The position numbers and the translations under genes were made by a program. From positions 62,001 through 126,000 of the forward strand of contig JAAXVL010000004.1 of assembly GCA_013335535.1 (NCBI GenBank): a stretch of DNA of 64,000 bases. Reading direction: 5' to 3'. The DNA is from Azonexaceae bacterium. Lineage in GTDB: Bacteria; Pseudomonadota; Gammaproteobacteria; Burkholderiales; Rhodocyclaceae. Under the pieces are notes generated by a model. It was given only the letters and a program-made list of their open reading frames with translations. It made no database searches and was not told the origin of the DNA. This document shows positions 7,106-47,611 of this stretch, in pieces (positions within the stretch are counted from its first letter, which is position 1; each line of letters opens with the position of its first letter).

Positions 7106-8053
7106 TCAGCCGACTTGTGACGCCAGAAGTTCGCGGGCCTGGGCCTGGCATTGGGCGCTGATGTTGGCATCAAGCGCAGTGCGCCAGCGTTTGGGAATGC
7201 TATCCAGGCCATAACGGGCGCCGGCCAGCATGCCGGCAATGGCGCCGGTGGTGTCTGCGTCGCCACCGCGGTTGACGACGTCGATCAGGCAGTCCTCGAA
7301 GGTTTCGGTGGCAAAGAAGGACTGGAAGACGGCTTGTACGGTGTCGACGACATAGCCGCTGGGGTTTTCTCGACGGCGCTTGTCATAGGCGAAAACCGGA
7401 AAATCGTTGACCAGCTTGCCGGCCCGTTCGCGCTCGACCTCAACCGCGTCGCGGCCGGCGAGAAAGTCCTGAACCATGAGGATCAGCGTTTCGCAGGCGG
7501 CGTCGGACAGCGTGTTGTGGTGGGTGACGTGGGCCTGGGCGGCGTTTGCGATTTTGGTCGTTTTTTCCGGTTGACCGTAGCAAGCCAGCGCCACGGGCAA
7601 AACGCGCATGGCCGCGCCGTTGCCAGCATCGTGCTCGGAAGCGGCGGCTTCGGGGTTGCCGGTCTGGCGAAAGGCGATCAGGTTGCGGCGTACGGTGTTG
7701 CCGATATCGACCGGCTTGGCCCGCATCCAGGCATCGAAGGCTTCGGCCGCAGCCAGGGCGTCGACACGGCCACGGGCGATGATGGACTCGCCGAGGGCGA
7801 GTGACATCGTCGTGTCGTCGGTCACTCTGCCGGCCTTCAGGCGTAGCCAGCCGCCGCCGGTGATCTCGCTGTGCAGGCCGATCTGGTGGCGGATTTCATT
7901 CGGGGTCAGGAATTCGACCGTGGCACCGAGCGCATCGCCGATGGCCAGCCCGAGATAGGCCGCCATGCCGCGGTCGATATGCGGCGGGTAGGCTGGTCCG
8001 GTGCGACGGCGCACCGGCGCGCTCCTGGCGATCAGTTCTCCGGTCCAAAACAT
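7106..8053 (-). CDS. draG: ADP-ribosyl-dinitrogen reductase glycohydrolase
   Basis: The 315-residue protein is an ADP-ribosylglycohydrolase: 'YLGLAIGDALGATVEFLTPN' (with the DraG family EF) near residues 33-52, metal-binding 'GRVTDDTTMSLAL', and the C-terminal metal motif 'GGDADTTGAIAGMLAGA'. In the nitrogenase system DraG removes ADP-ribose from the Fe protein and reactivates it. The start at 8053 overlaps the end of nifQ by 22 bases, which suggests translational coupling; Met30 is an alternative start. No draT is present in the window. A copy of the dispersed repeat lies inside the gene at 7545-7580, coding for the 'YGQPEKTTKIA' segment. Confidence 0.9.
   Translation of the reverse strand: MFWTGELIARSAPVRRRTGPAYPPHIDRGMAAYLGLAIGDALGATVEFLTPNEIRHQIGLHSEITGGGWLRLKAGRVTDDTTMSLALGESIIARGRVDALAAAEAFDAWMRAKPVDIGNTVRRNLIAFRQTGNPEAAASEHDAGNGAAMRVLPVALACYGQPEKTTKIANAAQAHVTHHNTLSDAACETLILMVQDFLAGRDAVEVERERAGKLVNDFPVFAYDKRRRENPSGYVVDTVQAVFQSFFATETFEDCLIDVVNRGGDADTTGAIAGMLAGARYGLDSIPKRWRTALDANISAQCQAQARELLASQVG
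7545..7580 (+). repeat. dispersed repeat copy inside draG
   Basis: CGATTTTGGTCG block followed by TTTTTTCCGGTTGACCGTAG; the core lies at 7571-7580. It is antisense to draG and codes there for part of a conserved-length protein. Confidence 0.75.
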
Positions 8054-8607
8054 TTGGCGTAATCCTTACAAACTCCGCACGACGGGGCTGGGCAGACGTA
8101 GATGCCTTCACGCGAACAGACCTGGCGATAGAGGAATTTCTTCCACTTCATGTCGCCGGTGTTGGCGCGGGCGAGCGCTGGAAAATTAACCCACATCAGC
8201 CGGGAAAGTTCTTCCCGATTGGCCAGGCCGAGATCCTGCCAGAGATGGTCGCGACCGGCGCAGGCGGTGGCGAGGATGTTGGCGATCAGCAGTTCGGACG
8301 GGTATTCGCAGGCGCGATGGTCGAGCAGCAGCTTTTGCAGGTCTTCCCATTCGGGAATGGCCTCAACGGCGCGTTGCGGCCCCCTGACGTCAAGCTGCGG
8401 AAAATAGGTGTGGAGCAGCCCGGCATGCGCCGCCTTGCCCAGCCCGAGATCGGCCGGCAGGCAACCAGTATCGGAAATCTGGCCGGCGACGACGCTGGCC
8501 AGCAGTGAACGATTCGGATCGGCCGCCGCCTTCGCCGTCGCTGCCGGCATGGCCAGCAACTCGGCGAACAGGGTGGTGCGGTAAGGCAGCCGGTCCGGAC
8601 CGTTCAT
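8032..8607 (-). CDS. nifQ: NifQ, molybdenum donor for FeMo-cofactor synthesis
   Basis: The 191-residue protein ends with the NifQ hallmark, a cysteine cluster C-x4-C-x2-C-x5-C in 'CPAPSCGVCKDYAKCFG' (about residues 171-187), which holds a Mo-Fe-S cluster in characterised NifQ proteins. NifQ delivers molybdenum to the NifEN/NifH assembly complex. The rest of the chain is helical and typical in length for the family. It is the seventh gene of the nifB operon and precedes draG, with which it overlaps. Confidence 0.93.
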   Translation of the reverse strand: MNGPDRLPYRTTLFAELLAMPAATAKAAADPNRSLLASVVAGQISDTGCLPADLGLGKAAHAGLLHTYFPQLDVRGPQRAVEAIPEWEDLQKLLLDHRACEYPSELLIANILATACAGRDHLWQDLGLANREELSRLMWVNFPALARANTGDMKWKKFLYRQVCSREGIYVCPAPSCGVCKDYAKCFGPEN

Positions 8608-8642
8608 GTCAGGCTCACTAACTCGGGCTTACTTGCTCGGGC

Positions 8643-9005
8643 TCACTTGCTGGGATATTCGACCAGGATGTCTTCGTCGCGAATGATCATCTGGCAGGCC
8701 AGGCGCCACTGGGTCGGCGGGATGTCATCGACGTACATCTGCTCGATCTGGGCCTTGGTGATGTGGCCGAGTTCGGTCAGCGCAGCGACTTCGCGGACGT
8801 TGAGCGGGCCGCCCATTGGGGCGCGCTTGCCGTCGACCGACGAAACCTTGACCAGACAGGTGCCGCAATTGCCTTCCTGGCAGCCGAAGTCGATCGGGAT
8901 GTGATGTTCCTTGGCCAGCGCGAGGATGGTCTGGGTGTGGCTGCCGGCAACGGCATAAACCGTCTTGTCCTTGTGCAGCGGGCTGGTGAAAGTGATGAGG
9001 GCCAT
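8643..9005 (-). CDS. [2Fe-2S] ferredoxin (nif operon)
   Basis: The 120-residue protein has a plant-type ferredoxin pattern: CQEGNCGTC near residues 43-51 (C-x4-C-x2-C) and a fourth cysteine in 'RLACQ' near 104. The long insert between third and fourth cysteine ('SVDGKRAPMGGPL' and onward) is longer than in classical plant-type ferredoxins. Its position inside the nifB operon, next to another 2Fe-2S ferredoxin and a flavodiiron protein, suggests electron delivery for cofactor biosynthesis, for nitrogenase or for oxygen reduction. Which of these applies cannot be decided from sequence. Confidence 0.88.
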   Translation of the reverse strand: MALITFTSPLHKDKTVYAVAGSHTQTILALAKEHHIPIDFGCQEGNCGTCLVKVSSVDGKRAPMGGPLNVREVAALTELGHITKAQIEQMYVDDIPPTQWRLACQMIIRDEDILVEYPSK

Positions 9006-9093
9006 TTTTTAAGTTCTCCTGGAGAGCGGGTTGATTTGGGTTTCTCTGATGCGGTTGGGCATTTGCTTTTAATCTTGTTCTGATAAGGCGGAA

Positions 9094-9381
9094 TTACGCC
9101 GGCTTGACGACGATTTCACCGCCAATGATCTGTGCCTGGCAGGCCAGTCGATGGCCGCGCGGGGCCAGGTTGTCTTTCAGCACCTGGTCTTCGAGGATGC
9201 TCGGCGGGGCGAGGAATTCGCCGCCGGAAACGATCTTGGTCAGACAGGTGCAGCATTCGCCTTCGCGGCAGCCGTAGGTGATGCCGGCGCCGACTTTCTC
9301 GGACACTTCGATGAGCCGGGTACCGGCCGGTACGGTGACCGAGACGCCGATATCCTGAAAGGTGACTTTCGCTTTTGGCAT
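9094..9381 (-). CDS. [2Fe-2S] ferredoxin (nif operon)
   Basis: This 95-residue plant-type ferredoxin carries CREGECCTC near residues 38-46 and 'RLACQ' near 79-83, a complete C-x4-C-x2-C...C set. It lies 18 bases after the flavodiiron gene and 88 bases before the second ferredoxin. An obvious possibility is that it donates electrons to the neighbouring flavodiiron protein, but ferredoxins of nif operons also serve nitrogenase and NifB directly. Confidence 0.9.
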   Translation of the reverse strand: MPKAKVTFQDIGVSVTVPAGTRLIEVSEKVGAGITYGCREGECCTCLTKIVSGGEFLAPPSILEDQVLKDNLAPRGHRLACQAQIIGGEIVVKPA

Positions 9382-9399
9382 TATTTTTCCCCCTGGTTG

Positions 9400-10671
9400 T
9401 TATGCGAGTGCTGCCATGTCGATCTCGCGGTGTTCTACGCGGCCCGTCAGGTGACGGGCCAGTTGTTCGCCGAGATCGCGGCAGGCTTCGAGTTCGCCGG
9501 CATCCGGCACGAGCTTGATACGCAGTCCTTCGACCGGGACGCGCAGCTTGAGGCCGCGCAGGCGATCTTCGATCAGCCGCACCGCCTCGCCGCTCCAGCC
9601 ATACGAGCCGAAAGCGGCGCCCAGCTTGCCCTTGACGTTGACCGTGGTCAGCGAGGACAGGACGTCCCAGATCGGCTTGACGGCATCGGCGTTGATGGTC
9701 GGGCTGCCGAAGGCGAGGCCATCGGCTTCCTCGATGAGGTCGGTGAAGATGCCCGACTCGCCACCTTCGAGGTCGTATAGCGAGACGCGCACACCGCCGA
9801 TGGCTTCGGCGCCGGCGGCGAGCGATTCGGCCATGCGTCGGGTATTGCCGTAGGCCGAGATGTAGAAGACGACCAGCGTCTTTTCGCTGCGCGCCTCGTT
9901 GAACAACCGGGGCGTCGCCAGTTCGCGGTAGCGGTGCACGTAGTCGCGCGGTGCGTGGCGCAGGATCGGGCCGTGGGCCGGAGCGATCAGGTTGATGTCG
10001 AGCGGCTCGATGAGAGCGATGGCGTCGAGCACATACTCGCGGAACGGCCGCATGATGTGCGCGTAGTAGTACTCGAACGAGAAGCGGAAATCGCCGACCG
10101 TGTCGTTGAACAGCCTGTTGTCGCAGAAATGGCAGCCGAAGATGTCGCCGGTGAACAGCAGGCCATCCTCGACCAGATAGGTGCATTGCGTGTCCGGCCA
10201 GTGCAGGTAAGGCGTGTGCAGGAAGCGCAGGGTGCGGCCGCCGAGGTCGACTTCGTCGTCGGTGGTGACCGGAATGTATTCGGGCGGCTTTTCGCCGGTC
10301 GGCTTGAGCAGAGCTTTCAACATCATCTGCGCGCGGCTCGACAGATAGACCTTGGCCTGCGGCGCGCGCTTGAGCAGTTCGGGCAGGGCGCCGCTGTGGT
10401 CGGGCTCGAGATGGTTGAGGACGATGGTGGTGATTTCGTCGTAGCGGGCCACCGATTCGAGTCGACGGAAGAAATCGTCGGCGAAGTTTTCCTTCACCGT
10501 GTCGATGATCGCCACGCCGTTCTCGCCGCGCACGACGTACGAGTTGTAGCTCGTGCCGTTGGCGGTTTTGAGGATGATGTCGAAACTCCGCAGATGCGGG
10601 TCGAGGGCGCCCACCCAGTGGACGCCCGGCGCAATTTCTACGGCGTTGTCAGTGAGTGCCGCAGCGACCAT
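9400..10671 (-). CDS. flavodiiron protein (A-type flavoprotein, O2/NO reductase)
   Basis: The start at 10671 (MVAAALTDNAVEIAPGVHWV) is preferred; upstream codons in the same frame lie inside the previous gene. The 423-residue protein has a metallo-beta-lactamase-like diiron domain (about 1-250) with ligands in 'LNHLEPDHSGALP', 'TPYLHWPD', 'FTGDIFGCHF' and 'APAHGPILR', and a C-terminal flavodoxin domain (about 255-400; 'VFYISAYGNTRRMAESLA', 'GAAFGSYGWSGEAV'). Such enzymes reduce oxygen to water or nitric oxide to nitrous oxide in the cytoplasm. Inside a nif operon, with two ferredoxins directly downstream, protection of nitrogenase from oxygen is the likely role. It overlaps the preceding gene by 23 bases. 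Confidence 0.92.
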   Translation of the reverse strand: MVAAALTDNAVEIAPGVHWVGALDPHLRSFDIILKTANGTSYNSYVVRGENGVAIIDTVKENFADDFFRRLESVARYDEITTIVLNHLEPDHSGALPELLKRAPQAKVYLSSRAQMMLKALLKPTGEKPPEYIPVTTDDEVDLGGRTLRFLHTPYLHWPDTQCTYLVEDGLLFTGDIFGCHFCDNRLFNDTVGDFRFSFEYYYAHIMRPFREYVLDAIALIEPLDINLIAPAHGPILRHAPRDYVHRYRELATPRLFNEARSEKTLVVFYISAYGNTRRMAESLAAGAEAIGGVRVSLYDLEGGESGIFTDLIEEADGLAFGSPTINADAVKPIWDVLSSLTTVNVKGKLGAAFGSYGWSGEAVRLIEDRLRGLKLRVPVEGLRIKLVPDAGELEACRDLGEQLARHLTGRVEHREIDMAALA

Positions 10672-11128
10672 GGCTGCTTTCCTCTTCCTCGTGATCATGG
10701 GCGTGGCTGCCACAGCTACCGTGGCCTTCCGGGCCATGCACGCAGGCTTCGATGTTGCCTTCCGGGAGCTCAACGTTTTTCAGGCCAATCCACGCGTCGA
10801 CCGCAGCAATGTCAAAGCCGACCAGCCGCTCCTCGCCGATTTCCATGAGCGGGCGACGAATGAGCAGCGGGTTCTCGAGCAGCAAATGCAGGGCATCTTC
10901 GAAACCCAGGTTTTCCGGGACGATTTCGCCCGACTTGATATCGGGCGCCGCCGGGTTGAACCAGGCGCTGATCGGCAGCTTGCCAAGAAAGGCGAGTAGC
11001 CGATCAGCCGTCCAGGCTTCGGTTTTCAGGCTTTTGGCCTGGACGGTGTGGCCGGCTGCTGCGAGCAAGGTCTTCTGGCGAAGATTGCCCTTGCAGCCGG
11101 GTTTTTCGTAGAACGTGACAACCGCCAT
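10649..11128 (-). CDS. NifO-like nitrogenase-associated ArsC-family protein with His-rich tail
   Basis: The 159-residue protein starts at 11128 (MAVVTFYEKPGC), its ATG sharing a base with the TAA of the ferredoxin gene in front. It has a thioredoxin-like ArsC/Spx fold with a single N-terminal cysteine (KPGCKGN rather than CxxC) and 'IRRPLMEIGEERLVGFD' near residues 90-106, as in the nitrogenase-associated NifO group. The last 30 or so residues form a tail rich in His, Cys and Glu ('HGSCGSHAHDHEEEESSHGR'), an unusual extension with the look of a metal-binding or metal-storage segment. Family members affect molybdenum partition between nitrogenase and nitrate reductase; the role here is inferred. 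Confidence 0.8.
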   Translation of the reverse strand: MAVVTFYEKPGCKGNLRQKTLLAAAGHTVQAKSLKTEAWTADRLLAFLGKLPISAWFNPAAPDIKSGEIVPENLGFEDALHLLLENPLLIRRPLMEIGEERLVGFDIAAVDAWIGLKNVELPEGNIEACVHGPEGHGSCGSHAHDHEEEESSHGRCGTH

Positions 11129-11406
11129 TACGCCGCGTCCTTCCACAAGCCGAATTGCTTGAGCTTTTCGATCGGGATGCCGGTCAGCGAACCCGGCGGG
11201 TTCAGGAAGGCGCCCAGTTCATCGACGATGGCCATTTCAATCGGGCAGATCGCAGCGCATTGCGGCACCCCGTGATCGCCCAGACACTCGGTACATTTGC
11301 CGTCATCGATCAGGAAATGCGGCGTGTCCTGATAGATCGCCTCGTTCGGACAGACATCGACGCAAGCCCAGCAATTGACGCAGGATTCGGTGATTTGCAG
11401 TGCCAT
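11128..11406 (-). CDS. dicluster 4Fe-4S ferredoxin following nifB
   Basis: The 92-residue protein has two 4Fe-4S motifs: CVNCWACVDVCP (residues about 9-20) and a second set CTECLGDHGVPQCAAICP with an expanded spacing between its second and third cysteines. This layout matches the FdxN-type ferredoxins that accompany nifB and supply it with electrons. The gene begins directly after the nifB stop, so the two are translated from one message. The following ArsC-family gene overlaps its stop codon. Confidence 0.9.
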   Translation of the reverse strand: MALQITESCVNCWACVDVCPNEAIYQDTPHFLIDDGKCTECLGDHGVPQCAAICPIEMAIVDELGAFLNPPGSLTGIPIEKLKQFGLWKDAA

Positions 11407-12915: not shown

Positions 12916-12951
12916 GATGTCGGCTCCTCGAATGCAGTCGGAGCCTATTCA

Positions 12952-13806: not shown

Positions 13807-13830
13807 CTCCCGCTTCCGGACTTCAGGCCG

Positions 13831-13867
13831 ATTTCAAATTTGGCCAATTTTTCCGGTTGACCGTGGC
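13831..13867 (+). repeat. dispersed 40-bp repeat, intergenic full-length copy
   Basis: This copy shows the whole pattern: an ATTTCAAATTTGGCC block and then AATTTTTCCGGTTGACCGTGG. It lies between two convergent genes and serves as the reference copy of the family (other copies at 7545, 15879, 16473, 21213, 28222, 30637, 34412, 39829, 41748 and 47142). Confidence 0.85.
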
Positions 13868-13905
13868 GTCCGGTCTGGGGCGAGGCGGACATTAAATCCG
13901 CGAGT

Positions 13906-15878: not shown

Positions 15879-15918
15879 TGCCACGGTCAACCGGAATAAA
15901 CGGCCAAAATTGAAATGC
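15879..15918 (-). repeat. dispersed repeat copy, the only one in minus orientation
   Basis: The plus strand shows CCACGGTCAACCGG (from 15881) and then TAAACGGCCAAAATTGAAAT, the reverse complement of the consensus. It lies between convergent genes. Confidence 0.85.
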
Positions 15919-16328: not shown

Positions 16329-17183
16329 CTAGACGACGGATAGGGTGACCGCCACATCGCGTGGCGGGGCGAAATACGGGGCCGAAGTGACCAGAATGTC
16401 AGCCCCGGCCCGCGCATAGTCCCCTGCGTTAGCAGAATTTATGCCGCCCGCCGCCGCGATGCGGGTGGATGCGGATTTCAAAATTAGCCCTTTTATCCTG
16501 TTGACCGTGGCAACCGGCATTTTTTCGAGTTGCAGGATGTCGGCGCCGGCCTCTTGCCAGCGCAGGGCTTCCGCTTCGTCGCCGACCTCGACGACGATGG
16601 CCCGTTCCGGCCAGGCCCGACGCAGGCGTCGCACGGTGTCCTTGGGCGCTTCGTTGCCGAGAAAACAACGGTGCTCGGCGAAGACGAGCAGGGTTTCCGA
16701 CAGGCTCAGGCGATGCGGGCTGGCGCCGCCGGCCATGATGGCCTTGATGGCGGCAGCCTTGGTGCCTGGGAAATTCTTGCGTGTGCAGGCGATGCCGATA
16801 TCCGGATTCTCGGCACGGGCGGCGGCGACGATGTCGGCCGTGCTGCTGGCGATGCCCGACAGGTATTCCATGAAGGTCTGCGCCGTTTTCCAGACGGTGT
16901 GCAGGCCGGCGGCGTGGCCTTCCAGCGTCAGGATGGTCTCACCGGCGGCGAGCCGGCTGCCGCTGGCGACCATGTTGCCGACGCAGCGCAGGCCGTGCAG
17001 TTCGCCCATGCGCCGGGCTTCCTCGCTGGCGCAGACGACCATGGCTTGCCGGGCGCGGAAGACCAGGCGGCCGGGCTGGTCGCCGATGCCGAGCGCGAAG
17101 GTCGTCGCGTCGCCGCAGGGCACGTCTTCGTCGAGCAGGCGGATGAGCTCGCTGTCGGGCAGGGTGTAGGGGTTGCTCGTCAT
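16329..17183 (-). CDS. modD: ModD, molybdenum-linked quinolinate phosphoribosyltransferase homologue
   Basis: The 284-residue protein belongs to the NadC superfamily: 'ALGIGDQPGRLVFRARQAMV' near residues 30-49, 'TRKNFPGTKAAAIKAIMAGG', 'EVGDEAEALRWQEAGADILQ' and 'AAAGGINSANAGDYA'. Unlike true NadC it has the ModD-type TRKNFPGTK rather than TRKTTPG, and it sits next to modC. It overlaps modC by four bases (ATGA). The biochemical role of ModD is not established. A dispersed-repeat copy is embedded just before the AAAGGIN motif. Confidence 0.9.
   Translation of the reverse strand: MTSNPYTLPDSELIRLLDEDVPCGDATTFALGIGDQPGRLVFRARQAMVVCASEEARRMGELHGLRCVGNMVASGSRLAAGETILTLEGHAAGLHTVWKTAQTFMEYLSGIASSTADIVAAARAENPDIGIACTRKNFPGTKAAAIKAIMAGGASPHRLSLSETLLVFAEHRCFLGNEAPKDTVRRLRRAWPERAIVVEVGDEAEALRWQEAGADILQLEKMPVATVNRIKGLILKSASTRIAAAGGINSANAGDYARAGADILVTSAPYFAPPRDVAVTLSVV
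16473..16512 (+). repeat. dispersed repeat copy inside modD
   Basis: GGATTTCAAAATTAGCCC is followed by TTTTATCCTGTTGACCGTGG (core 16501-16510). In modD it codes for 'ATVNRIKGLILKS' on the minus strand, just before the conserved AAAGGIN motif. Confidence 0.75.
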
Positions 17184-21212: not shown

Positions 21213-21250
21213 CATTTCAATTTTGGGCATTTTTTACGGTTGACCGTGAA
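21213..21250 (+). repeat. dispersed repeat copy after mop
   Basis: CATTTCAATTTTGGGCAT is followed by TTTTTACGGTTGACCGTGA (core 21240-21249). It is intergenic, between the terminators of mop and of the di-heme cytochrome gene. Confidence 0.8.
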
Positions 21251-21266
21251 AGTGCCGGATGGCGCG

Positions 21267-27703: not shown

Positions 27704-28233
27704 GGCAGTAGCTCCGGTCGGATTTGCGCCAGCCAGGCGTCGATGCGGGCCTCGGTCAGCAGCGGCTGGTGGTGCTGGTCCAGCGCCAGGCCGAGGAATT
27801 CGTCGCCATCCACCGCCTGCGAGGCGGTGAAGTCGTAGCCGGCGGTCAGCCAGCGACCGACGACGCGGCCGCCGGCAGCGACAAAGGCGTCGTGCAGCAG
27901 GCCAATGGCGTCGACAAATTCTTCGGGGTATTTTTTCTGGTCGCCCAGGCCGAAGATGGCGATGGTCTTGCCAGTCAGGTCGGCGCCGGCCAGTTGCGGA
28001 AGGAACTCCTCCCAGCTCGGCTGGCTGAGGCCGACCGACTGGCCGGGTAGTTCGCCATCGCCGAGCGTCGGGCTGCCGACGATGAGCGCGTCGTAGGCTA
28101 GGAAATCTTCAAGTGTCGTGCGGCCGATGTTGACCGGCGCCTCGGCAACGTCCCCCAGTTTTTTCGCCATCTGCTTGGCGATGAGCCGGGTGCGGCCGGT
28201 GTCGGTGCCGAAGAAGATTCCGATTTTGGCCAT
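27700..28233 (-). CDS. nifF: flavodoxin, nitrogenase electron donor type
   Basis: The 177-residue long-chain flavodoxin has the FMN phosphate loop 'GIFFGTDTGRTRLIAKQMAK' (residues 5-24), 'LIVGSPTLGDGELPGQSVGL' and 'IFGLGDQKKYPEEFVDAIGL' and the long-chain insert near residues 125-150. The place between a nifZ-like gene and other nif-linked genes, under a NifA/RpoN promoter, supports the NifF role of passing electrons from NifJ to the nitrogenase Fe protein. nifJ is encoded at 33.3 kb. A dispersed-repeat copy covers its start codon. Confidence 0.92.
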   Translation of the reverse strand: MAKIGIFFGTDTGRTRLIAKQMAKKLGDVAEAPVNIGRTTLEDFLAYDALIVGSPTLGDGELPGQSVGLSQPSWEEFLPQLAGADLTGKTIAIFGLGDQKKYPEEFVDAIGLLHDAFVAAGGRVVGRWLTAGYDFTASQAVDGDEFLGLALDQHHQPLLTEARIDAWLAQIRPELLP

Positions 28234-28254
28234 TTTTACCGGTTGACCGTGGAA
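28222..28254 (+). repeat. dispersed repeat copy spanning the nifZ-like stop and nifF start
   Basis: CGATTTTGGCC is followed by ATTTTTACCGGTTGACCGTGG (core 28243-28252). Read on the minus strand it supplies the last codons and TAA stop of the nifZ-like gene and the first codons (ATGGCCAAAATC) of the flavodoxin. Confidence 0.8.
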
Positions 28255-30369: not shown

Positions 30370-30702
30370 TCAAGCTGCGCTGTAATGAACGGCCAGCCAG
30401 AGCGTTGGCTGCTCCGGGTCGGTCCATTCGACGCGGTGCCGGCGGTGCGGGGCGATGTCGATGCAGTCGCCGGGATTGAGCGTGAGCGGCGCTGGCGTGT
30501 CCTCGAAACGTAGCGTGGCTTTGCCTTGCAGCAGCGTCACCCATTCGCCTTCGGGCTGGTCGTACCAGAAGCCCGGCGGGCTGCACTGGCCGGTGGAAAC
30601 GATGCGTTCGATGCGCAGGCCGGGGCGCTCGAGCAGATTTGAAAATTGCTCGTTATTTCCGGTTGACCGTGGAATATCGGCAAAAAGGTTGTCTGTCATC
30701 AT
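30370..30702 (-). CDS. cupin-fold protein
   Basis: The 110-residue protein has a single cupin barrel: 'PPGFWYDQPEGEWVTLLQGK' and 'LNPGDCIDIAPHRRHRVEWT' give the usual metal-site positions (E and H) of motifs 1 and 2. Proteins of this size are often annotated as phosphoribosylaminoimidazole-like cupins, without known substrate. A dispersed-repeat copy codes for part of residues 9-24, just before the barrel. Its start overlaps the stop of the upstream gene; Met2 is an equal start candidate. Confidence 0.8.
   Translation of the reverse strand: MMTDNLFADIPRSTGNNEQFSNLLERPGLRIERIVSTGQCSPPGFWYDQPEGEWVTLLQGKATLRFEDTPAPLTLNPGDCIDIAPHRRHRVEWTDPEQPTLWLAVHYSAA
30637..30674 (+). repeat. dispersed repeat copy inside the cupin gene
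   Basis: AGATTTGAAAATTGCTCG is followed by TTATTTCCGGTTGACCGTGG (core 30663-30672). It codes for 'PRSTGNNEQFSNL' of the cupin on the minus strand. Confidence 0.8.
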
Positions 30703-31967: not shown

Positions 31968-33072
31968 TTACACACCTTGCTTGAGGCTGGCCTCGATGAA
32001 CGGATCGAGATCGCCGTCGAGTACGCCCTGGGTGTTGCCGGTTTCGTGGTTGGTGCGCAGATCCTTGATACGGCTCTGGTCGAGCACGTAGGAGCGGATC
32101 TGGTGGCCCCAGCCGATGTCGGACTTGGCGTCTTCGAGCTTCTGCTGCTCGGCTTGCTGCTTGCGCAGCTCGAACTCGTAGATGCGGGCGCGCAGCATTT
32201 GCCAGGCTTCGTCGCGATTGCGGTGCTGCGAACGGTCGTTCTGGCACTGGACGACGATGCCGGTCGGCACGTGGGTCAGACGGACGGCCGAGTCAGTCTT
32301 ATTGATGTGCTGACCACCGGCACCGGAGGCGCGATAGGTGTCGGTGCGCACGTCGGCTGGATTGATGTTGATTTCGATCGAGTCATCGACTTCCGGGAAG
32401 ACGAATACCGAGGTGAAGCTGGTGTGGCGGCGGGCGGCCGAGTCGAAAGGCGACTTGCGGACCAGGCGATGGATGCCGGTTTCGGTGCGCAGCGTGCCGT
32501 AGGCATAGTCGCCCGTGAACTTGACGGTGGCGCTCTTGAGGCCGGCGACGTCGCCTTCGGATTCTTCCATGACTTCCACGGTGAACCCTTTTTTCTCGCC
32601 ATATTTCAAATACATGCGCAGCAGCATCGAGGCCCAGTCCTGGGCTTCCGTACCGCCGGCGCCGGCCTGGATTTCCAGGAAGCAGGGCATTGGGTCGGAC
32701 GGGTTGTTGAACATGCGGCGGAATTCGAGGGCGGCGACCTTGGCTTCGAGGCCGGCGTTGTCAGCCTCGACGGCGAGCAGGGTGTCTTCATCGCCATCTT
32801 CCTTGCCCATGTCGAACAGCTCGCGGCCATCCTTGAGGCCGGCAGCGACTTCCTCGAGCACGAGCACGATGTTTTCCAGCGATTTCTTCTCGCGACCGAG
32901 TTCCTGGGCGCGCTTGGCGTCGTCCCAGATCTTCGGGTCTTCCATCTCCTGCGTGAGGAGGGTCAGGCGTTCGCGTTTCTGATCGTAGTCAAAGATACCT
33001 CCGCAGCTCGGCGGCGCGCTGCGCCAGATCGTCGAGCTTGTTGGAGATGCTGTTGATGTGTTCGGCTTCCAT
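31968..33072 (-). CDS. prfB: peptide chain release factor 2 with programmed +1 frameshift
   Basis: The gene starts at 33072 ([20 protein letters not shown]), meets an in-frame UGA at 32991-32989 after 27 codons, and continues in the +1 frame to 31968. The main frame contains the release-factor motifs '[20 protein letters not shown]' (GGQ) and '[16 protein letters not shown]', and the SPF tripeptide in '[15 protein letters not shown]' that reads UGA and UAA. RF2 made from this gene competes with the frameshift, which gives autoregulation. The coordinates span both frames (join of 33072-32992 and 32990-31968). Confidence 0.95.
32986..33004 (-). promoter_or_regulatory. prfB programmed frameshift site
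   Basis: The minus strand reads GCGGAGGTATCTTTGACTA: a Shine-Dalgarno-like GGAGG three bases before the slippery CTT and the UGA-C stop, essentially the E. coli arrangement. Confidence 0.95.
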
Positions 33073-33273: not shown

Positions 33274-36892
<3,619 letters not shown>

Positions 36893-39464: not shown

Positions 39465-41153
39465 TTATTCCAAGTGTTCCACCATCAACTGCGGGCTTTC
39501 GACGCCCATATACTCGTTGATCGCCAGCCGGTAGGCGACGCGGGTGCAATTGCCGGGCTGGGTGCTGAAGTTGAACTGGATTGCGTCGATGCGGGTGTCG
39601 CCTTTGCGCAGGCGCAGCTTGAGGTGTTTTTCCTTGAGCACGCGTTGCTGTTCGACGTCGAAATCGTCCATGAATAGCGGCGCCGGGAAGCCCTGGCCCC
39701 AGATTTCGTTTTCCAGCAGGCGGGCGGTGGCCAGCGAGATGTAGCTGCCTTCTAGGGTGCCGTCGGTTTCCAGCGTGCGGGTCAGATCGGCCGGGGCGAG
39801 CAGTTCGCCGGCGACATCGGCGAACAAGGATTTAAATTTTTCGAAGTTTTCGGCGTTGACCGTGGCACCGGCCGCCATGGCGTGGCCGCCGAAGCGGATG
39901 AGCAGGCCGGGGGCGCGTTTGGCGACGAGGTCGAGTGCGTCACGCAGGTGCAGGCCGGGGATAGAGCGGCCGGAACCCTTGATGATGCCGCCTTCGCCAG
40001 GGGCGAAGGCGAAGACCGGGCGGTGCAGCTTGTCCTTGATGCGTGAGGCGAGGATGCCGACGACGCCTTCGTGCCAGCTTTCGTCGAACATCGCGATGCC
40101 GGGGGCGGCGTCGTTGGCGTCGAGTGATTCGAGCAGGGCCAATGCCTGTTCCTGCATGCCGGATTCGATTTCGCGGCGTTCGCGGTTCAGGGTGTCGAGC
40201 TCCTGGGCGATTTGCAGGGCGCGGCTGGCGTCGTCTGTGAGTAGGCATTCGACGCCCAGGCGCATGTCGGCCAGGCGACCGGCGGCATTGAGGCGCGGGC
40301 CGAGGATGAAGCCGAGATCCATCGCCGTGGCCTTTTTCGGGTCGCGGCCGGCGGCCTTGAACAGGGCGGCGATGCCCGGCTGCATCTGGCCGGCGCGCAT
40401 GCGCTTCAAGCCTTGGCTGACGAGAATACGGTTGTTGCGGTCGAGCTTGACCACGTCGGCCACCGTGCCCAGCGCGACGAGGTCGAGCAGGTTGGCGAAG
40501 TTGGGTTCCGGGCGTTCGGCAAACCAGCCGCGTTCGCGCAGTTCAGCGCGCAGAGCGAGCATGACGTAGAACATGACGCCGACGCCGGCGATACATTTTG
40601 ACGGGAAGTCGCAGTCGGGCTGGTTGGGATTGACGATGCAATCGGCGGCCGGGAGCGTTTCGGCCGGCAGGTGGTGGTCGGTGATCAGCGTCGCGATGCC
40701 GTGCTGTTGGGCGCGGGCGACGCCTTCAAGGCTGGCGATGCCGTTGTCAACGGTGATGATGAGGTCTGGCGATTGCTGGGCGGCAACGTCGACGATTTCG
40801 GGTGATAGGCCGTAGCCGAGCTTGAAGCGGTCGGGGAGCAGGAAATCGACGTTGGCGCCGAGCGACTTCAAGGCGCGCATGCCGACGGCCGTGGCGGTGG
40901 CGCCATCGCAGTCGTAGTCGCCGATGATCAGCATCTTGGCTTCGGCCTCGATGGCATCGGCCAGCAGGTGTGCGGCTTCGGTGGCGTTGGTCAGGGCTGT
41001 GGGCGGGATCAGCGACTTCAGTTCGTAGTCGAGTTCGGATTTGTCCTTGATGCCACGCGCGGCGTAGAGCCGGGCGAGCAGAGGGTGCAGACCCTGCTGC
41101 TCGAGTTGCCAGACGATGCGGGGCGGGCTGCTGCGGGTGGTGATGTTGGTCAC
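39465..41153 (-). CDS. recJ: single-stranded-DNA-specific exonuclease RecJ
   Basis: The 562-residue protein starts at a GTG (41153) whose GTGA overlaps the stop of the upstream gene. It shows the DHH-family motifs 'LIIGDYDCDGATATAVGMRA', 'VDNGIASLEGVARAQQHG', 'LITDHHLPAETLPAADCIVN' and the DHHA1 GGHAMAAG motif. RecJ degrades single-stranded DNA 5' to 3' in recombination and repair. Residues right after GGHAMAAG are encoded by a diverged copy of the dispersed repeat. Confidence 0.96.
   Translation of the reverse strand: MTNITTRSSPPRIVWQLEQQGLHPLLARLYAARGIKDKSELDYELKSLIPPTALTNATEAAHLLADAIEAEAKMLIIGDYDCDGATATAVGMRALKSLGANVDFLLPDRFKLGYGLSPEIVDVAAQQSPDLIITVDNGIASLEGVARAQQHGIATLITDHHLPAETLPAADCIVNPNQPDCDFPSKCIAGVGVMFYVMLALRAELRERGWFAERPEPNFANLLDLVALGTVADVVKLDRNNRILVSQGLKRMRAGQMQPGIAALFKAAGRDPKKATAMDLGFILGPRLNAAGRLADMRLGVECLLTDDASRALQIAQELDTLNRERREIESGMQEQALALLESLDANDAAPGIAMFDESWHEGVVGILASRIKDKLHRPVFAFAPGEGGIIKGSGRSIPGLHLRDALDLVAKRAPGLLIRFGGHAMAAGATVNAENFEKFKSLFADVAGELLAPADLTRTLETDGTLEGSYISLATARLLENEIWGQGFPAPLFMDDFDVEQQRVLKEKHLKLRLRKGDTRIDAIQFNFSTQPGNCTRVAYRLAINEYMGVESPQLMVEHLE
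39829..39867 (+). repeat. dispersed repeat-like copy inside recJ
   Basis: GGATTTAAATTTTTCGAAG is followed by TTTTCGGCGTTGACCGTGG (core 39856-39865). It is antisense to recJ, where it codes for 'ATVNAENFEKFKS'. This copy is diverged in the CCGG part. Confidence 0.6.
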
Positions 41154-42205
41154 GAGGTAGTTCCTTCGGCCTGTTTTTCAGCCAATGCCTTGGCCATGCT
41201 CTGCAGCGGGTGACTCTTGCGCCAGAATTTCCAGCGGTCCTTGCCGCGCAGCGTCCAGGTCAGCTGGCCGTAGATGGTGGGGGCGACGATGGTCAGGGTG
41301 TCGACCTTACTGCCCAGCGCAGCGCGCAGCGGGACGAACCAGTTGCTTTCCAGCGCGGCGAAGGTATTGCGCCAATCTTCGCTGTTTTCGTAAAGCACCG
41401 GCGGCAGCAGGCTGTCGAGGACGACAAGCTGGTTGTCGTTGGGGCCGGCATCGGCGTCGGCGAGCAGGGCGCTCAGGCTGGCCGGGCAGGGTGGTGCTTC
41501 GATGCCGGCGGTGAGCGCCAGTCCAATGGCCAGCGGGTTGTCGCTGCAGACGGTCGAAAAATTGGGCGAGGAAATTTCGGGTAACGGTCCGCCACCCCAC
41601 AGCCAGACGCTGTTGACGGCTGGCTTGCCCTCGGCCTGGCGGCGGGCGTTGACCGGGTGGCCGTGGAGGAACATCTGTACTTCGTTGAGCCAGCGGTTGA
41701 GCGGGCCGTTTTTGTCGGTCAGATCGCTATCGAGGCGGCGGCCGGCAATTGTTGAAATTGGGGCAAATTTCTCGTTGACCGTGGAATTGAGTTGCAAGTA
41801 CCAGCGGCGGGCGGTCGCGACATGGAAGCGCCCGATGTCGGCGAATTCGCTGTTGAGCGCGGCCGTGATGGCGTGCGCTTCGTCGACGTCGAGATCGAAG
41901 GCGCCTGCATCGGCGAGGACAATGCGTTCATGGTGAAAGCGCAGGTGCACGGGGTCGGCGCACAGCCAGTGGCCGTCTTCGACCTCTCCTTTTCCCGTTT
42001 CACCGAGCAGGCGCAGAGGCCCGAATGGCGCGTCAGCGAGCCCGAAGCAGTCAGCCAGTGTGTCTTCAAAAGCCTTACGTGGCTGGCGCGAAAACTCGGC
42101 ATGGGCGGTCAGCCATTCGAAGCCAGGGGCCGCCAGTTTCCCGAGGGTCAGTTGGTCGTTCGGTTCGGGCCAGATCAATTCGGGGACAAGCAGGGTGAGG
42201 CGCAC
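41150..42205 (-). CDS. cofactor-independent phosphoglycerate mutase-like regulatory protein
   Basis: A GTG at 42205 (VRLTLLVPELIWPEPNDQ) is the likely start; the first ATG in frame lies far upstream, over the lolC start. The roughly 351-residue protein resembles the conserved group annotated as 'cofactor-independent phosphoglycerate mutase' or RpfE-type, with 'HWLCADPVHLRFHHERIVLA' and 'NSVWLWGGGPLP'. The metal- and serine-site residues of true iPGM are not evident, so catalysis is doubtful. It is followed directly by recJ. A dispersed-repeat copy lies inside. Confidence 0.7.
   Translation of the reverse strand: MRLTLLVPELIWPEPNDQLTLGKLAAPGFEWLTAHAEFSRQPRKAFEDTLADCFGLADAPFGPLRLLGETGKGEVEDGHWLCADPVHLRFHHERIVLADAGAFDLDVDEAHAITAALNSEFADIGRFHVATARRWYLQLNSTVNEKFAPISTIAGRRLDSDLTDKNGPLNRWLNEVQMFLHGHPVNARRQAEGKPAVNSVWLWGGGPLPEISSPNFSTVCSDNPLAIGLALTAGIEAPPCPASLSALLADADAGPNDNQLVVLDSLLPPVLYENSEDWRNTFAALESNWFVPLRAALGSKVDTLTIVAPTIYGQLTWTLRGKDRWKFWRKSHPLQSMAKALAEKQAEGTTS
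41748..41786 (+). repeat. dispersed repeat copy inside the phosphoglycerate-mutase-like gene
   Basis: TTGTTGAAATTGGGGC is followed by AAATTTCTCGTTGACCGTGG (core 41775-41784). It is antisense to the gene, coding for 'NSTVNEKFAPIST'. Confidence 0.65.
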
Positions 42206-42274
42206 GGGCGGCAGGCAAGGGGTGGGCGACCAAAAAGTGTACCATAGCGACTTTCCCCGCCCGGTGTTATCCGC

Positions 42275-43522
42275 ATGGCATTGCCTTACGAACTGTTGAT
42301 CGGCCTGCGCTACACGCGCGCCAAGAAACGCAATCACTTCATTTCATTCATTTCGCTGATCTCGATGCTCGGCATCGGCCTCGGCGTTGCCGCGCTGATC
42401 GTTGTGCTGTCAGTCATGAACGGCTTTCAGAAGGAGTTGCGGACACGCATTCTCGGCGTCGCCTCGCACATCCAGATTACAGGCATCAACGGTGAGTTGC
42501 CGAACTGGGCGCTGGTTGCCGAGCAGGCCGCCAAACACCCGGAAGTCCGCGCCAGTGCGCCCTTCGTCCAGTCGCAGGGGATGTTCAGCGTTGATGGCAC
42601 GGTCAAGGGCACCATCGTGCGCGGCATCATTCCCGATCAGGAAGACCGCGTCGCCGATTTCCGCAAGACCATCCAGAGCGGCAGCCTCGACGACCTGCGG
42701 CCGGGCGAGTTCGGTGTCGTGCTGGGTTCCGATCTGGCCCGCTCGCTACGCGTTTTCACTGGCGACAAGCTCACGCTGATTGCGCCGCAGGGCACGGTGA
42801 CGCCGGCCGGCGTGATGCCGCGGCTCAAGTCTTTCAAGGTGGTTGGTATTTTCGAAGTCGGGATGTTCGAGTACGACTCTGGGCTGGCGCTGATCAATCT
42901 GGAGGATGCGCAAAAGCTTTACCAGATGGACGACCGGGTGACCGGCGTGCGGCTCAAGGTCGACGATCTCTTCCAGGCGCCGCGCATCGCCCGCGAACTG
43001 GTCCGCTACATCGACGCCGACGCCTACCTGAGCGACTGGACGAAGAGCCACGCCAATTTCTTCCGCGCCGTGCAGATCGAGAAAAACATGATGTTCATCA
43101 TCCTCTCGCTGATCGTTGCCGTGGCGGCCTTCAACCTCGTGTCGACACTGGTCATGGCGGTTACCGACAAACAGGCCGACATCGCCATCCTGCGCACGCT
43201 GGGGGCGCGGCCGCTGTCGATCATGGCTGTCTTTGTCGTGCAGGGTGCGCTGGTCGGCTTCATCGGGCTGGGTATGGGCATCCTTGGCGGCGTGTTGCTG
43301 GCGTTCAATATTGATACCGTCGTGCCGTTCATCGAACAAATGCTCGGCGTGCATTTTCTGTCCAAGGAGGTCTATTACATCTCCGACCTGCCTTCCGAGT
43401 TGCAATGGGGCGATGTCTGGGGCGTCACGTTGATCGCCTTCGTGCTCGCCTTGCTGGCGACGCTTTACCCCAGTTGGCGGGCTTCCCGCGTCAATCCGGC
43501 GGAGGCCCTGCGCTATGAGTGA
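42275..43522 (+). CDS. lolC: lipoprotein-releasing ABC transporter permease
   Basis: The 415-residue protein has a first membrane segment (residues 25-48) after '[20 protein letters not shown]', a large periplasmic MacB-like domain (about 50-265) and three further membrane segments in the C-terminal FtsX domain. It extracts lipoproteins from the inner membrane for LolA, with LolD as ATPase. Only one permease gene is present, so it may be the LolCE/LolF type that works as a homodimer. It overlaps lolD by eight bases. Confidence 0.92.
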
Positions 43523-44192
43523 ACCGATTCTGATCGCCCGCGGGCTGTCCAAGATATTTCGTGGCGGCGGGCTGGATGTACCCGTGCTGTCTGGCGTCGA
43601 TCTGCAGGTCAATCCCGGCGAAACGGTGGCTATTGTGGGTGCTTCCGGCTCCGGAAAAAGTACCTTGCTGCACCTGCTGGGCGGGTTGGATACGCCGTCG
43701 ACCGGCGAGGTGACCTTGATGGGCCGCGAATTTTCAACGCTCGGCGAGGTTGGTCGTGGGGACTGGCGCAACCTCCATCTCGGTTTCGTCTATCAGTTTC
43801 ACCATCTGCTCGCCGAGTTCTCGGCGCTGGAAAACGTCGCCATGCCCTTGCTGATTCGCCGCATGGAGCGCGGCGCAGCACTGAAAAAGGCGGGCGAAAT
43901 ACTGAACGCCGTCGGTCTTGGCCATCGGCTGGAACATCGCCCCGGAGAGCTTTCTGGCGGCGAGCGCCAGCGTGCGGCGATTGCCCGGGCCTTGGTCAGC
44001 GATCCATCCTGTCTGCTGGCCGATGAACCAACTGGCAATCTGGACAGTCATACTGCGTCGCTTGTTTTTGGATTGCTCATTGATCGGGTGCGTGAGCAGC
44101 AGGCCAGTCTGATCGTTGTTACGCACGATCAGCGACTGGCGGCAAGAGCGGACCGGGTGCTATATTTAAATGACGGTGTTCTTTGCCAATAA
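43515..44192 (+). CDS. lolD: lipoprotein-releasing ABC transporter ATP-binding protein
   Basis: The 225-residue ATPase has Walker [17 protein letters not shown] (near residues 37-52), the LolD-type '[20 protein letters not shown]', signature '[15 protein letters not shown]', Walker B '[12 protein letters not shown]' and the switch 'LIVVTHD'. It powers LolC. Its ATG lies inside the end of lolC. Confidence 0.95.
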
Positions 44193-44275
44193 TTTAATAA
44201 GTGTCAATTCGAACAAAATCTGCTTAAATTAGCATCCTGTTTGTTGCTAACGGCACGTCGCTGAGGAGACCACGA

Positions 44276-46291
44276 ATGCAAGTCCTTTTTTCCCCGGCAG
44301 TTGCACTGATGAACAGGCTTCGTTACACCAGCAAGTTTTTGCTGCTTGGTTCGGCAGTGCTGGTCGTGATGCTGGTTCTGCTCTATTCCGTTTTTTCCTT
44401 TTTGAGTCGGGATATCGAAACGAGTGAGCAGGAAATGGCCGGCTTGCAGATGATCAAGCCGATCAACAGACTGGCACAGGCAATGCAGCAGCATCGTGGT
44501 TTGTCGTCTGGCGTGCTCAACGGCAACGAGGCGATGAAGGACAAGCGGGCGGCCAAGGAAAAAGAGGTGGCTGCGGCCATCTTGGCGACCGATGCGGCGC
44601 TCCCCTCTAAATTACGCGAAACGGCTGATTGGAAGACGATTCGTCGCGACTGGGAAGCGATTGCCGGGCAAGGGCTGACGTGGACGCCGCCGGAGAACAT
44701 CAAGCGGCATACGCTGATGATCGGCAATGTCCTGCAATTCATGGTGACGGTGGCCGACGAGACGCAAATGACCCTCGATCCGGTCATGGATACCTACTAT
44801 TTCATGGACACGTTGGTTACCAAGATGCCGGCAATGCTGGAGCAGATGGGGATCACGCGGGCCCGTGGCACCGGCTTGCTGACTAAAAAAGAGTTGTCGC
44901 AGCAGCAGCGGGTCGAATTTTCATCGATTCTGGCGCAAATGGAGGGCACGCTACGTGCTCAGAACATCAATCTGGAAAAGGTGATGCGCTATTCGCCGGC
45001 ACTGCAGTCGGCCCTTTCCGGGCCGACCAAGGAGTTTTCGGCTGGGGCGGAGAAGATTTTTGCCTTGGTTCGCGACGATATTTTCGGGGAAAAGTACGCG
45101 ACTGCACCGCAGGATTATTTTGCGATGACCACGCAGGTCATCGATCTCGGCTACAAGGTCATGTTCGACACGTTGATTCCGCAGTTCGAGAATCAATTGC
45201 AGGGGCGGATCGATCGGTCGCGCAAGGTTCTCGTGCTGGAAATCGGCATGGCTGTCGGCATTGGCTTGCTCGTCTTGTATCTGGGCATTGGCACTTACTA
45301 CTCGGTGATCAACAGCGTTAGCGATTTTTCCCGGGGCGCCAGTCGTATGGCCGATGGTGACCTGACGACCGAGTTCGATACGGAGGGCGTTGATGAATTG
45401 CATGGCGCCGGCCGGAATTTCAACGGAATGGCTGCCGCCTTCCGCAAGTTGTTAGGCGGCATTCAGGGAGACGTGCAGCAACTCAATCGGGCTGCCGAGC
45501 AACTGGCTACGTCGAGCCAGCAGATTTCCTCGGGCACGGCCGCACAGAGCGATTCCGCTTCAAGCATGGCGGCCGCCGTCGAGCAAATGACGGTCGGCAT
45601 CGATCATATTTCCCGCAATGCGCAGGATGCGCAGATGTACTCGCGGGAGTCGGACGAGGTCGCGACACGGGGTGGCCTGATTGTGCAGGAAGTGGTTAAC
45701 GAAATTCAGGGTATCGCCCAGACCGTCAATGAGTCTGCCGCTGCGGTTGAGGCGCTCGGTCAGCAATCCGGACAAATTTCGGCTATCGTCGGGACGATCA
45801 AGGATATCGCTGACCAGACCAACCTGCTGGCGCTCAACGCCGCCATCGAGGCCGCGCGGGCCGGTGAATCGGGCCGTGGTTTTGCCGTGGTGGCCGATGA
45901 GGTGAGAAAACTGGCGGAACGGACGACCAAATCGACCCATGAAATTTCCGCGATGATCTCGTCCGTCCAGTCGGACACGGCGACGGCAGTTTCGAGCATG
46001 AAAGAGGGTGTTTCCCGGGTGTCGTCCGGTGTCGAGCAGGCGCGACTGGCTGGCGAAGCGATCGGTCAGGTTCAGGCGCAGTCGCGCCAGGTTCTCAACG
46101 CTGTTTCGGAGATTTCCGTGGCCTTGCGCGAACAGGCTGCGGCCAGCACCGAAATCGCCCAGAACGTCGAGCGCATTGCCCAGATGGCTGAGGAAAACAG
46201 CGCAGCAGCGAGCGGCAATGCCGATACTTCGGATACGCTGCGCAAGCTGGCGCACGCGCTGACGACGGCTATCGCCCGCTTCCGGACCTGA
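44276..46291 (+). CDS. methyl-accepting chemotaxis protein with nitrate/nitrite-type (NIT) sensor region
   Basis: The 671-residue receptor starts at 44276 after GAGGAG. It has a membrane segment (about 20-42), a periplasmic helical sensor (about 45-310) with '[20 protein letters not shown]', as in NIT domains, a second segment (about 318-342), a HAMP domain and a signalling domain. The hairpin tip is '[20 protein letters not shown]' with '[18 protein letters not shown]'. It sends attractant or repellent signals to CheA. The ligand may be nitrate or nitrite by family, which is not proven. Its 3' end overlaps the convergent DUF2062 gene by 23 bases. Confidence 0.9.
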
Positions 46292-46817
46292 GTTTTTTCC
46301 GGCGCCGCCAGGCGCCGATCAGATAAGCCCGCCACGCTGCCTGCGTGGCGAAATAGCCGACTACGGCCAGCCCACCGGCGAGCATGATCAGGCCGATGCC
46401 CAGCGGTTGGGCGACGGCCAGCATCCAGGTCTGCATCGCGCTTGTCCAGCCGATGAAATCGGTCGCTGTGAAAGCGGGCGGCGTCAGGAAACCGTTGCTT
46501 TCGCCGATGGTCAGCCGGCCGATCTGGTAGGCCAGCAGGTAAAGCGGGACGATGGTGAACGGGTTGGTGTAGAGCGTCACTAACATCGCCAGCGGCAGAT
46601 TGACGCGAAAGACCAGCGCGCAGGCAGCCGCGCCGAGCATTTGCAGCGGTCCGGGAATGAGCCCGCAGAACAGCCCGGCCGCTACCGCGCCCGCTGCCGA
46701 GTGGCGGTTCAGGTGCCACAGCCGTGGGTGCAGCAACGACGAGGCAAACGGTCTCAGCCAGGGGTTGTCGCGGATCGTTTGCGGATCGGGCAGGTATTTT
46801 TTCAGGGTCCGGCGCAT
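46269..46817 (-). CDS. DUF2062 membrane protein
   Basis: The 182-residue protein contains '[20 protein letters not shown]' followed by '[20 protein letters not shown]' and '[20 protein letters not shown]', the DUF2062 signature, and three or four hydrophobic segments. It is an inner-membrane protein of unknown function, common in betaproteobacteria next to comEC, as here. It is divergent from comEC with only 17 bases between start codons. Confidence 0.88.
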
Positions 46818-46834
46818 GCCCGTATTATTGCAGC

Positions 46835-47611
46835 ATGCGCCTGAATATTCTCGCCTTCGCTGCCGGGGTCCTCGGCGTGCAAATGCAGCCGGAACTGCCC
46901 GGCTGGACGCTCTGGGCGGTTATCGGCGGGCTGCTGGCACTGCCCCGGCTGCGCTGGTCGGGCTGGCCGGCGCGCGTACTGGCGCTCCTCGCTTGTCTGG
47001 CGTTCGGTGTGGCGTGGGCTGGCTGGCGGGCCGAGATTCGGCTGGCCGATCAGCTTGGCGCGGAGTGGGAGGGGCGCGACGTCGAAGTGATTGGCGTGGT
47101 CGCCGGATTGCCCCAGGATTTCAGCAACGGTACGCGTTTCGAATTTGACGTGAATTTCCGGTTGACCGTGGCAACCGGAAATCCCGTCGTTCCAGGGCGG
47201 ATCATGCTCTCGTGGTACCAGGGGCGGCGCGATGGCGAGCAATTCGAGCGATTGCAGGTCCGACCCGGCGAGCGCTGGCGCTTTACGGTGCGGTTGAAGC
47301 GGCCGCACGGCAATGCCAATCCCGGGGGCTTCGATTACGAGGCCTGGCTGCTTGAGCGCAACATCCGGGCGACCGGCTACATCCGCCCCAATCCGCCGCA
47401 GCGTCTCGACGACATGGTATGGCGCCCAGATTACGCCATCGAGCGGCTGCGCCATACCATCCGCGAATCGTTTGCCCGCATGCTGCCGGAAGAACGCTAT
47501 CCGTGGGCCGGGGTGCTGGTGGCCTTGGTCATCGGTGACCAGAAGGCGATTCAGGGCGAATTGTGGACGACCTTCAACCGGACCGGCACGACACACCTGA
47601 TGAGCATCTAA
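46835..47611 (+). pseudogene. comEC: comEC, 5' fragment cut by an integrated element
   Basis: The 258-residue product begins with membrane segments (about 5-60), continues with the soluble OB-like DUF4131 region and stops at TAA right after 'FNRTGTTHLMSI'. In intact ComEC/Rec2 proteins this is followed by SGLH and about 500 more residues with the channel and the metallo-beta-lactamase domain. The break coincides with a cluster of repeats and a serine recombinase gene, so the gene was split by insertion. The missing part is not in the window. DNA uptake by natural transformation should be lost unless the element excises. A dispersed-repeat copy lies at residues 105-112. Confidence 0.93.
47142..47173 (+). 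repeat. dispersed repeat copy inside the comEC fragment
   Basis: GAATTTGACG is followed by TGAATTTCCGGTTGACCGTGG (core 47162-47171). It is read in sense as 'FDVNFRLTVATG', inside the soluble part of ComEC. No copy was seen to the right of this point. Confidence 0.75.

Follow-up and report, generated by a model that had tools for sequence, protein, structure and literature searches.

The window analysed here is a stretch of 64,000 nucleotides from the genome of an Azonexaceae bacterium (assembly GCA_013335535.1, contig JAAXVL010000004.1, positions 62,001 to 126,000; hereafter this genome is G000 and congener genomes are G1xx, with C denoting a contig and L a sampled stretch). It carries dispersed copies of a 39-bp motif with the consensus ATTTCAATTTTGGCCNNTTTTTCCGGTTGACCGTGGNA and, towards its right end, the 5′ part of the competence gene comEC (46826..47611, plus strand), cut by an island that fills the rest of the window (47612..64000). 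A sequence-only reading had listed eleven copies, laid out as an AT block, GCC, a T tract and the core CCGGTTGACCGTGG; all eleven (11/11) are found at the positions given, and the layout is borne out. Three are intergenic, at 13830..13868 (plus strand, weight-matrix score 60.6), 15879..15917 (minus, 62.4) and 21213..21251 (plus, 54.5). The others all lie on the plus strand: at 7544..7582 (51.9), 16474..16512 (51.6), 30636..30674 (54.8), 39829..39867 (32.9) and 41748..41786 (34.8) within minus-strand open reading frames (ORFs), at 28216..28254 (56.5) where a minus-strand ORF begins, at 34408..34446 (45.4) within a plus-strand ORF, and at 47135..47173 (48.7) within the 5′ part of comEC. The ORF holding the copy at 39829..39867 is one that we take to be recJ-like. 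A weak match at 32574..32612 (minus, 19.0), within a conserved ORF, is a doubtful copy.

The window has 23 matches to CCGGTTGACCGTGG when up to 3 mismatches are allowed; shuffled sequence gives 7.3 ± 2.8, and none of 100 shuffles reached 23. The weight matrix, 39 bp long, was built from 86 matches to the core, 8 of them window copies. At a score of at least 14 it identified 113 copies in 464 kb of G000, made up of the window and twenty stretches of 20 kb from contig C1; the reversed sequence gave none at that score and a single match at 12 or more. Twelve of the 113 fall in the window, namely the eleven noted earlier and the weak match at 32574; the copies at 39829 and 41748, on which the matrix had not been trained, lie well above the reversed-sequence control scores. 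All G000 sequence scored, 604 kb composed of C33:22001-226000 and 400 kb of C1, contains 135 copies (plus strand 70, minus strand 65), which, scaled to 4,246,987 bases, extrapolates to about 950 copies in the genome. A genome-wide pattern search, proposed together with the original list, returned hundreds of copies rather than few: 375 exact matches to a 14-bp core (control 0), 637 with at most one mismatch (control 2) and 791 to a relaxed pattern (396 and 395 on the two strands; control 3, strands 1 and 2). Perfect copies are thus in the majority, with 375 exact cores against 262 one-mismatch cores (637 less 375). Such a strong consensus, with exact cores exceeding near matches, is given in PMC1626085 as a trait of the uptake signal sequences (USS) of Pasteurellaceae and the DNA uptake sequences (DUS) of Neisseriaceae. 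Typical density is about one copy per 4 kb, at which the lack of copies in the first 7.5 kb of the window is unremarkable.

The same early reading held the repeat to be of fixed strand polarity and likened it to motifs such as Chi or the FtsK-orienting polar sequences (KOPS). Within the window the orientation is indeed skewed, 10 copies lying on the plus and 2 on the minus strand (two-sided p 0.04). The claim fails at the scale of the genome, where exact cores divide 188/187 between the strands and cores with up to one mismatch 315/322. Taking the G-rich strand (GC skew) as a proxy for the leading one, we found that copies divide 55/44 relative to the G-rich strand of their own 20-kb stretch in the G000 sample, and 19/22 in G159, a related complete chromosome; by this measure no replichore bias was seen in either. 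An apparent one-strand region on contig C1 was discarded, as sampled stretches and full counts proved balanced. No clear link to gene direction is seen either: copies within genes lie 25 in the same and 36 in the opposite direction, and intergenic copies are near-equal. The polarity of the window is a local accident. A strand-polarised architecture motif of the Chi, KOPS or AIMS (architecture imparting sequences) type, suggested by 10 of 12 window copies facing one way, is therefore unsupported: the two strands carry balanced numbers across the genome and near-equal numbers in the 25 genomes of the genus rich in the motif (see below), and strand choice does not follow GC skew in G000 or G159. 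This explanation is refuted for G000, and we give it almost no chance.

With the midpoint of GGTT|GACC as origin, the core of the motif spans about -6 to +7 and is preceded by an AT tract at -12..-7, a GC spacer (GGCC) at -17..-14 and a second AT tract at -28..-18 that is interrupted by one fixed C. Both AT tracts thus flank the core on the same side, separated by about one helical turn; a small A-rich patch occurs beyond the core at +9..+10. In 50 of 51 intergenic copies (one is too near a stretch end) the share of A/T is 94-100% at -22..-19 and 98-100% at -11..-8. Informative columns sum to 57.9 bits in the 50 intergenic copies and to 46.1 bits in 61 coding copies. Read on the opposite strand, the motif presents the core CCACGGTCAACCGG, then AT tract, spacer and AT tract; neither CTG nor CAG occurs in the consensus. 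One pair of full copies stands head to head, cores 4 bp apart, forming a near-perfect palindrome (L030 around 1500, the same as L054 19168-19245).

Genes were called on 447.6 kb with a simple purpose-made ORF caller, coding sequence making up 91% of the DNA scored; because the caller is rough, the figures for gene placement are approximate. Of the 113 copies, 61 lie in coding sequence, 1 partly so and 51 between genes, an intergenic density 8.5 times the coding density (p 1e-23, approximate count-based test). Mean scores are 42.7 for coding and 55.4 for intergenic copies. Coding copies favour one codon phase (44/61, p 1e-9), which we read as FRLTVA on the strand of the gene (comEC is an example) and as STVNRK on the opposite one. 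The intergenic excess would fit a regulatory or terminator element, as would the terminator-like hairpins that enclose, by eye, some palindromic copies in the congener G127. Half of the copies, however, are inside genes, the orientation of intergenic copies is independent of gene direction, and only one inverted pair within 150 bp occurs among the 113 copies, so that we regard such an element as very improbable.

The copies are spaced more evenly than chance: over 92 gaps the coefficient of variation is 0.64, against a simulated mean of 0.91 (95% range 0.77-1.05), with none of 5000 simulations as low. Their density climbs with GC content although the motif is AT-rich. In 5-kb blocks there are 0 copies in the 30 kb under 54% GC, 11 in 95 kb and 54 in 250 kb in the two intermediate classes, from lower to higher, and 70 in the 225 kb at 62% or above. 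The absence of copies from the island beginning at 47.6 kb, remarked upon earlier for its window part (47.6-64 kb), is real and extends over its full 33.7 kb, with a chance of about 2e-4. Among 2.9 million viral contigs, from which records near G000 were possibly left out, there were 2 exact matches to the extended core.

The origin of the copies was addressed by aligning C33:22001-226000, which holds 34 of them, with stretches of six congeners. At 14 of the 34 copies, 37 alignments span the motif; 25 of these involve relatives other than the close G131, which has many copies in common with G000. The most bases missing in any relative is 7, and in 0/37 comparisons does a relative lack 20 or more bases at the motif. 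The finding that no relative is without the 39 bp argues that copies at alignable sites arose in place, by point mutation and not by insertion. Within the window, G131, G133, G149, G147 and G127 all align without gaps at 39829..39867; the copy at 30636..30674 is common to G131, with G133, G146 and G147 co-linear but differing in sequence, and G146 is co-linear with small gaps at 28216..28254. At some sites where G000 has GTTGACCGTGG, relatives carry a form of their own. G133 reads GTTGACCGCAGCATT at C33 96408 (window 34408) and GTTGACCGCAGCAAC at C33 181044; at 103748 (window 41748) G127 has GTCGACCGCAGCATG and G133 GTCTACCGCAGCATT. By our reading, the G133 form ACCGCAG stands at the G000 site in 4/9 G133 alignments and is absent from the other 5.

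These data bear on the possibility that the repeat is a small mobile element, of the kind of repetitive extragenic palindromes (REP) or miniature inverted-repeat transposable elements (MITE), spread by copying and insertion. Near-identical copies, a patchy presence among species and the head-to-head pair with 4 bp between its cores are what such an element could leave. Yet an empty site was found in 0/37 orthologous comparisons (most intergenic copies not being comparable), coding copies prefer one codon phase, G133 has its own form at the same position in 4 of 9 alignments, and copies are rarest in low-GC DNA. A mobile origin thus appears very unlikely, in line with the initial impression that the repeat resembles an uptake or architecture motif more than a transposon.

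The species sampled belong to a genus that we infer to be Azonexus/Dechloromonas, environmental bacteria. The pattern WWWYNSGGTYGACCG occurs at least 100 times in 25 of its 76 genomes, at most 15 times in 33 and in between in 18, counts that serve only as a guide because palindromic sites can count twice and the pattern fits the various forms unequally; a low count need not mean that there is no motif. Control totals do not exceed 8, and strands are near-equal in the 25 genomes of the richest class. Outside the genus, 392 genomes (of 399 sampled in the order) never gave more than 8 matches. Among the matches listed for named genome contigs, Dechloromonas and Azonexus are the genus names on repeated matches, other repeated matches being to metagenome-assembled genomes named only Rhodocyclaceae, Beta-, Gamma- or Proteobacteria; Stenotrophomonas, Pseudomonas and an Azobacteroides metagenome-assembled genome have one match each.

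In 7 of 10 species the over-represented 10-mers of the sampled stretches are variants of the motif, which we call dialects. The top 10-mer in G000, GTTGACCGTG, was seen 84 times where 1.9 were expected; its counterparts are GGTTGACCGT in G159, GTTGACCGCA in G191 and G133, GTCGACCGTG in G151 and GTCGACCGCA in G149 and G127. No 10-mer stands out in the motif-poor G150, G155 and G146 (z-score below 9; only 60 kb for G146). In G153 and G159 other words ranked above the motif when samples were small; in G159 it moved to the top once samples were enlarged and words had to occur in at least one third of stretches. Motif refinement was captured by a tandem array in G151 and had no usable outcome in G130, G149, G154, G112 and G174; the dialects of G151, G130 and G149 rest on the other analyses. 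Some dialects are fully palindromic, as in G151 and G156 (e.g., AATTTGACGGTCGACCGTCAAATT). The hairpins seen by eye around some palindromic copies of G127 (L070, L194-L196) have the form GCCCGG...CCGGGC followed by a T run; paired DUS and USS are likewise reported in terminator-like hairpins in PMC12616744. The dialects of G133, G149, G127 and G191 contain, on the reverse strand, GCGGT, five letters common to both Pasteurellaceae USS cores; this overlap is probably a coincidence, though the motif and USS also agree in the side on which the AT tracts are placed.

A further explanation is that a chromosome-organising or nucleoid protein (with a SlmA-, Noc- or SMC-like role) binds the copies, which selection would keep at some 1000 places. 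Even spacing, the absence of copies from the island and from the DNA poorest in GC, and palindromic dialects that suggest a dimeric binder in some species are all compatible with this. However, the 46-58 bits or so per copy far exceed what marking sites would need, exact cores outnumber one-mismatch cores, each dialect requires a joint change at hundreds of sites, and 61 of the 113 copies lie in genes, with GC skew unrelated. We know of no family of chromosome-organising sites with such copy numbers. On balance this explanation is rather unlikely.

Sequence-tagged DNA uptake has been described for Pasteurellaceae and Neisseriaceae (PMC5031613, PMC3630211), and abundance, strong consensus, presence on both strands, mutational origin, AT segments and dialects are the traits by which USS and DUS are recognised in PMC1626085 and PMC3630211. 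The motif resembles USS in that two AT-rich segments flank a GC core on the same side, their centres separated by 12 positions in USS and by about 11-13 in the motif; further resemblances are the many copies on both strands, the predominance of perfect cores over near matches, an origin by point mutation and not insertion, and the existence of dialects (PMC1626085, PMC12616744). It differs in its core, CCACGGTCAACCGG and not AAGTGCGGT or ACAAGCGGT, although some of its dialects contain GCGGT, in dialects that are more divergent and in part palindromic, in belonging to another order, in its patchiness within a genus and in that its role in uptake is putative. With DUS it shares an over-represented genomic 10-mer, several dialects in related species, palindromic dialects resembling the overlapping dyad pairs of Simonsiella, and the presence of a ComP-family minor pilin (PMC3630211). 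Unlike DUS it has neither the GCCGTCTGAA-type consensus nor a CTG core, is 39 bp long as opposed to 10-12 and has AT tracts; moreover, the ComP-family match of G000 is modest, and the family is found also in motif-poor species. As neither known core is present, the motif is by sequence neither USS nor DUS, and, as the sequence-only reading had supposed, we found no description of it in open-access papers.

Taken together, these properties make it quite probable that the repeat is a DNA-uptake sequence. The suggestion of an uptake motif had been made from the window; it is upheld by the many copies on both strands, origin in place at alignable sites, even spacing, preference for DNA of typical GC, absence from the island and dialects, and its argument from polarity falls away. 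We consider it fairly likely, if less so, that the repeat represents a third, independently evolved DNA-uptake-sequence system, confined within the sampled order to Azonexus/Dechloromonas (as assigned above), with a bipartite 39-bp tag, fast turnover of dialects at fixed gene positions, and full-palindrome dialects that would point to a dimeric or two-sided receptor. We infer uptake to be the selecting process. A type IV pilus and competence machinery would recognise the self-tag on free double-stranded DNA and thereby favour the uptake of fragments that carry it, from the same species or from a sister species; these would then be recombined into the chromosome. Uptake bias and recombination would then overwrite untagged with tagged alleles (molecular drive), and point mutations arising in place would build up tags across core DNA to a density of roughly one per 4 kb. 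The proposal that a tag works in either orientation would account for the absence of polarity. The receptor may read the GC core, with the AT tracts, a helical turn apart, helping to bend or melt the DNA; as its specificity drifts, the whole set of tags would follow, giving rise to dialects.

The machinery for transformation is widespread in the genus. In genomes at least 90% complete, the ComEC domain is found in 56/56, a GspH/FimT pilin in 52/56 and the ComP_DUS family (PF16732) in 54/56 (and in 0/14 named controls); DprA is present in 8/8 genomes searched. In G000 a minor-pilin cluster opens with a ComP_DUS-family pilin and includes a GspH/FimT pilin, a PilV-like protein just under the cut-off, PilW and PilY1. 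The predicted structure of the ComP-like pilin (mean predicted local distance difference test score, pLDDT, 71.6) gives generic pilin matches only. This minor pilin is only a candidate for the receptor. ComEC, GspH/FimT and ComP_DUS were considered as the cause of the division into tag-rich and tag-poor genomes and rejected, since they do not separate the two.

Several observations weigh against assigning the repeat to DNA uptake. ComEC and ComP_DUS are equally common in motif-poor and motif-rich genomes, and all 3 motif-poor genomes searched for DprA have it; therefore no gene found explains which species carry tags. The ComP_DUS match of G000 is modest, at 44 bits with a cut-off of 27.3, and its structural model is generic, with no Foldseek match at E ≤ 0.001 and ComP ranking fourth at E 0.34. 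Tags are distributed patchily, with at most 15 matches in 33 of the 76 congeners; in PMC1626085 all eight Pasteurellacean genomes considered had USS. Pasteurellaceae tags are described in PMC2346458 as biased to gene ends and, within genes, to one orientation, and no such end bias is clear here, with 27, 14 and 16 copies in the first, middle and last third of genes (n=57). As to origin in place, only 14 of 34 copies could be aligned across, mostly coding and few intergenic, and true insertions may have been missed because a single alignment had to cross each copy. A local alignment can be interrupted by a genuine insertion, so we also looked for copies with left and right flanks aligned separately; the 4 cases all differ by several hundred bases or more and are uninformative. 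Finally, the G000 strain itself probably cannot transform now, judging from its split comEC.

The interruption lies between HLMSI, ending at window position 47611, and SGLHVTM, with which comEC resumes 33.7 kb further on (L186, around 17320). The 5′ part in the window encodes DUF4131 and the first 28 positions of the Competence domain. The good preservation of the tags despite the split gene suggests that competence was lost recently, and PMC1626085 makes a like argument for Pasteurellaceae that lost competence. An element landing in a competence gene could thereby block its own removal by transformation. A large serine recombinase gene (47737..49533, plus strand; PF00239, PF07508, PF13408) starts 126 bp from the left junction of the island, and a second, tyrosine-type integrase is encoded at 58096-59166. 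Defence-like genes comprise those for a CHAT domain protein (49470-51629), a DUF6710 protein (54332-55093), a DUF4917 protein whose SIR2-like match falls below the cut-off (55654-56694) and a type ISP restriction-modification enzyme (59917-63948). A 74-nt direct repeat, 88% identical, occurs at 52211-52284 and 54266-54339, 2055 bp apart. The remainder of the island (L186 1-17300) appears by eye to encode polymerase-like, phage-type primase/helicase and UmuC/UmuD-like proteins. In congeners, the ComEC domain match is in two pieces 32.5 kb apart in G181 (C1:2218607 and 2251157), which may hold a similar insertion in comEC; the two pieces are adjacent in G164 (C1:1959698 and 1959178), and in G127 they are on separate contigs (C10 and C17), with a stop codon inside one.

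If the repeat is a DNA-uptake sequence, it would constitute a third origin of sequence-tagged uptake, beyond those of Pasteurellaceae and Neisseriaceae (PMC5031613, PMC3630211). The occurrence of tag-rich and tag-poor species and of several dialects side by side would offer a test of why uptake tags evolve, and would allow the co-evolution of receptor and tag, and the tag-based isolation of species' DNA, to be tested. The tag would also indicate which DNA Azonexus/Dechloromonas are likely to accept.

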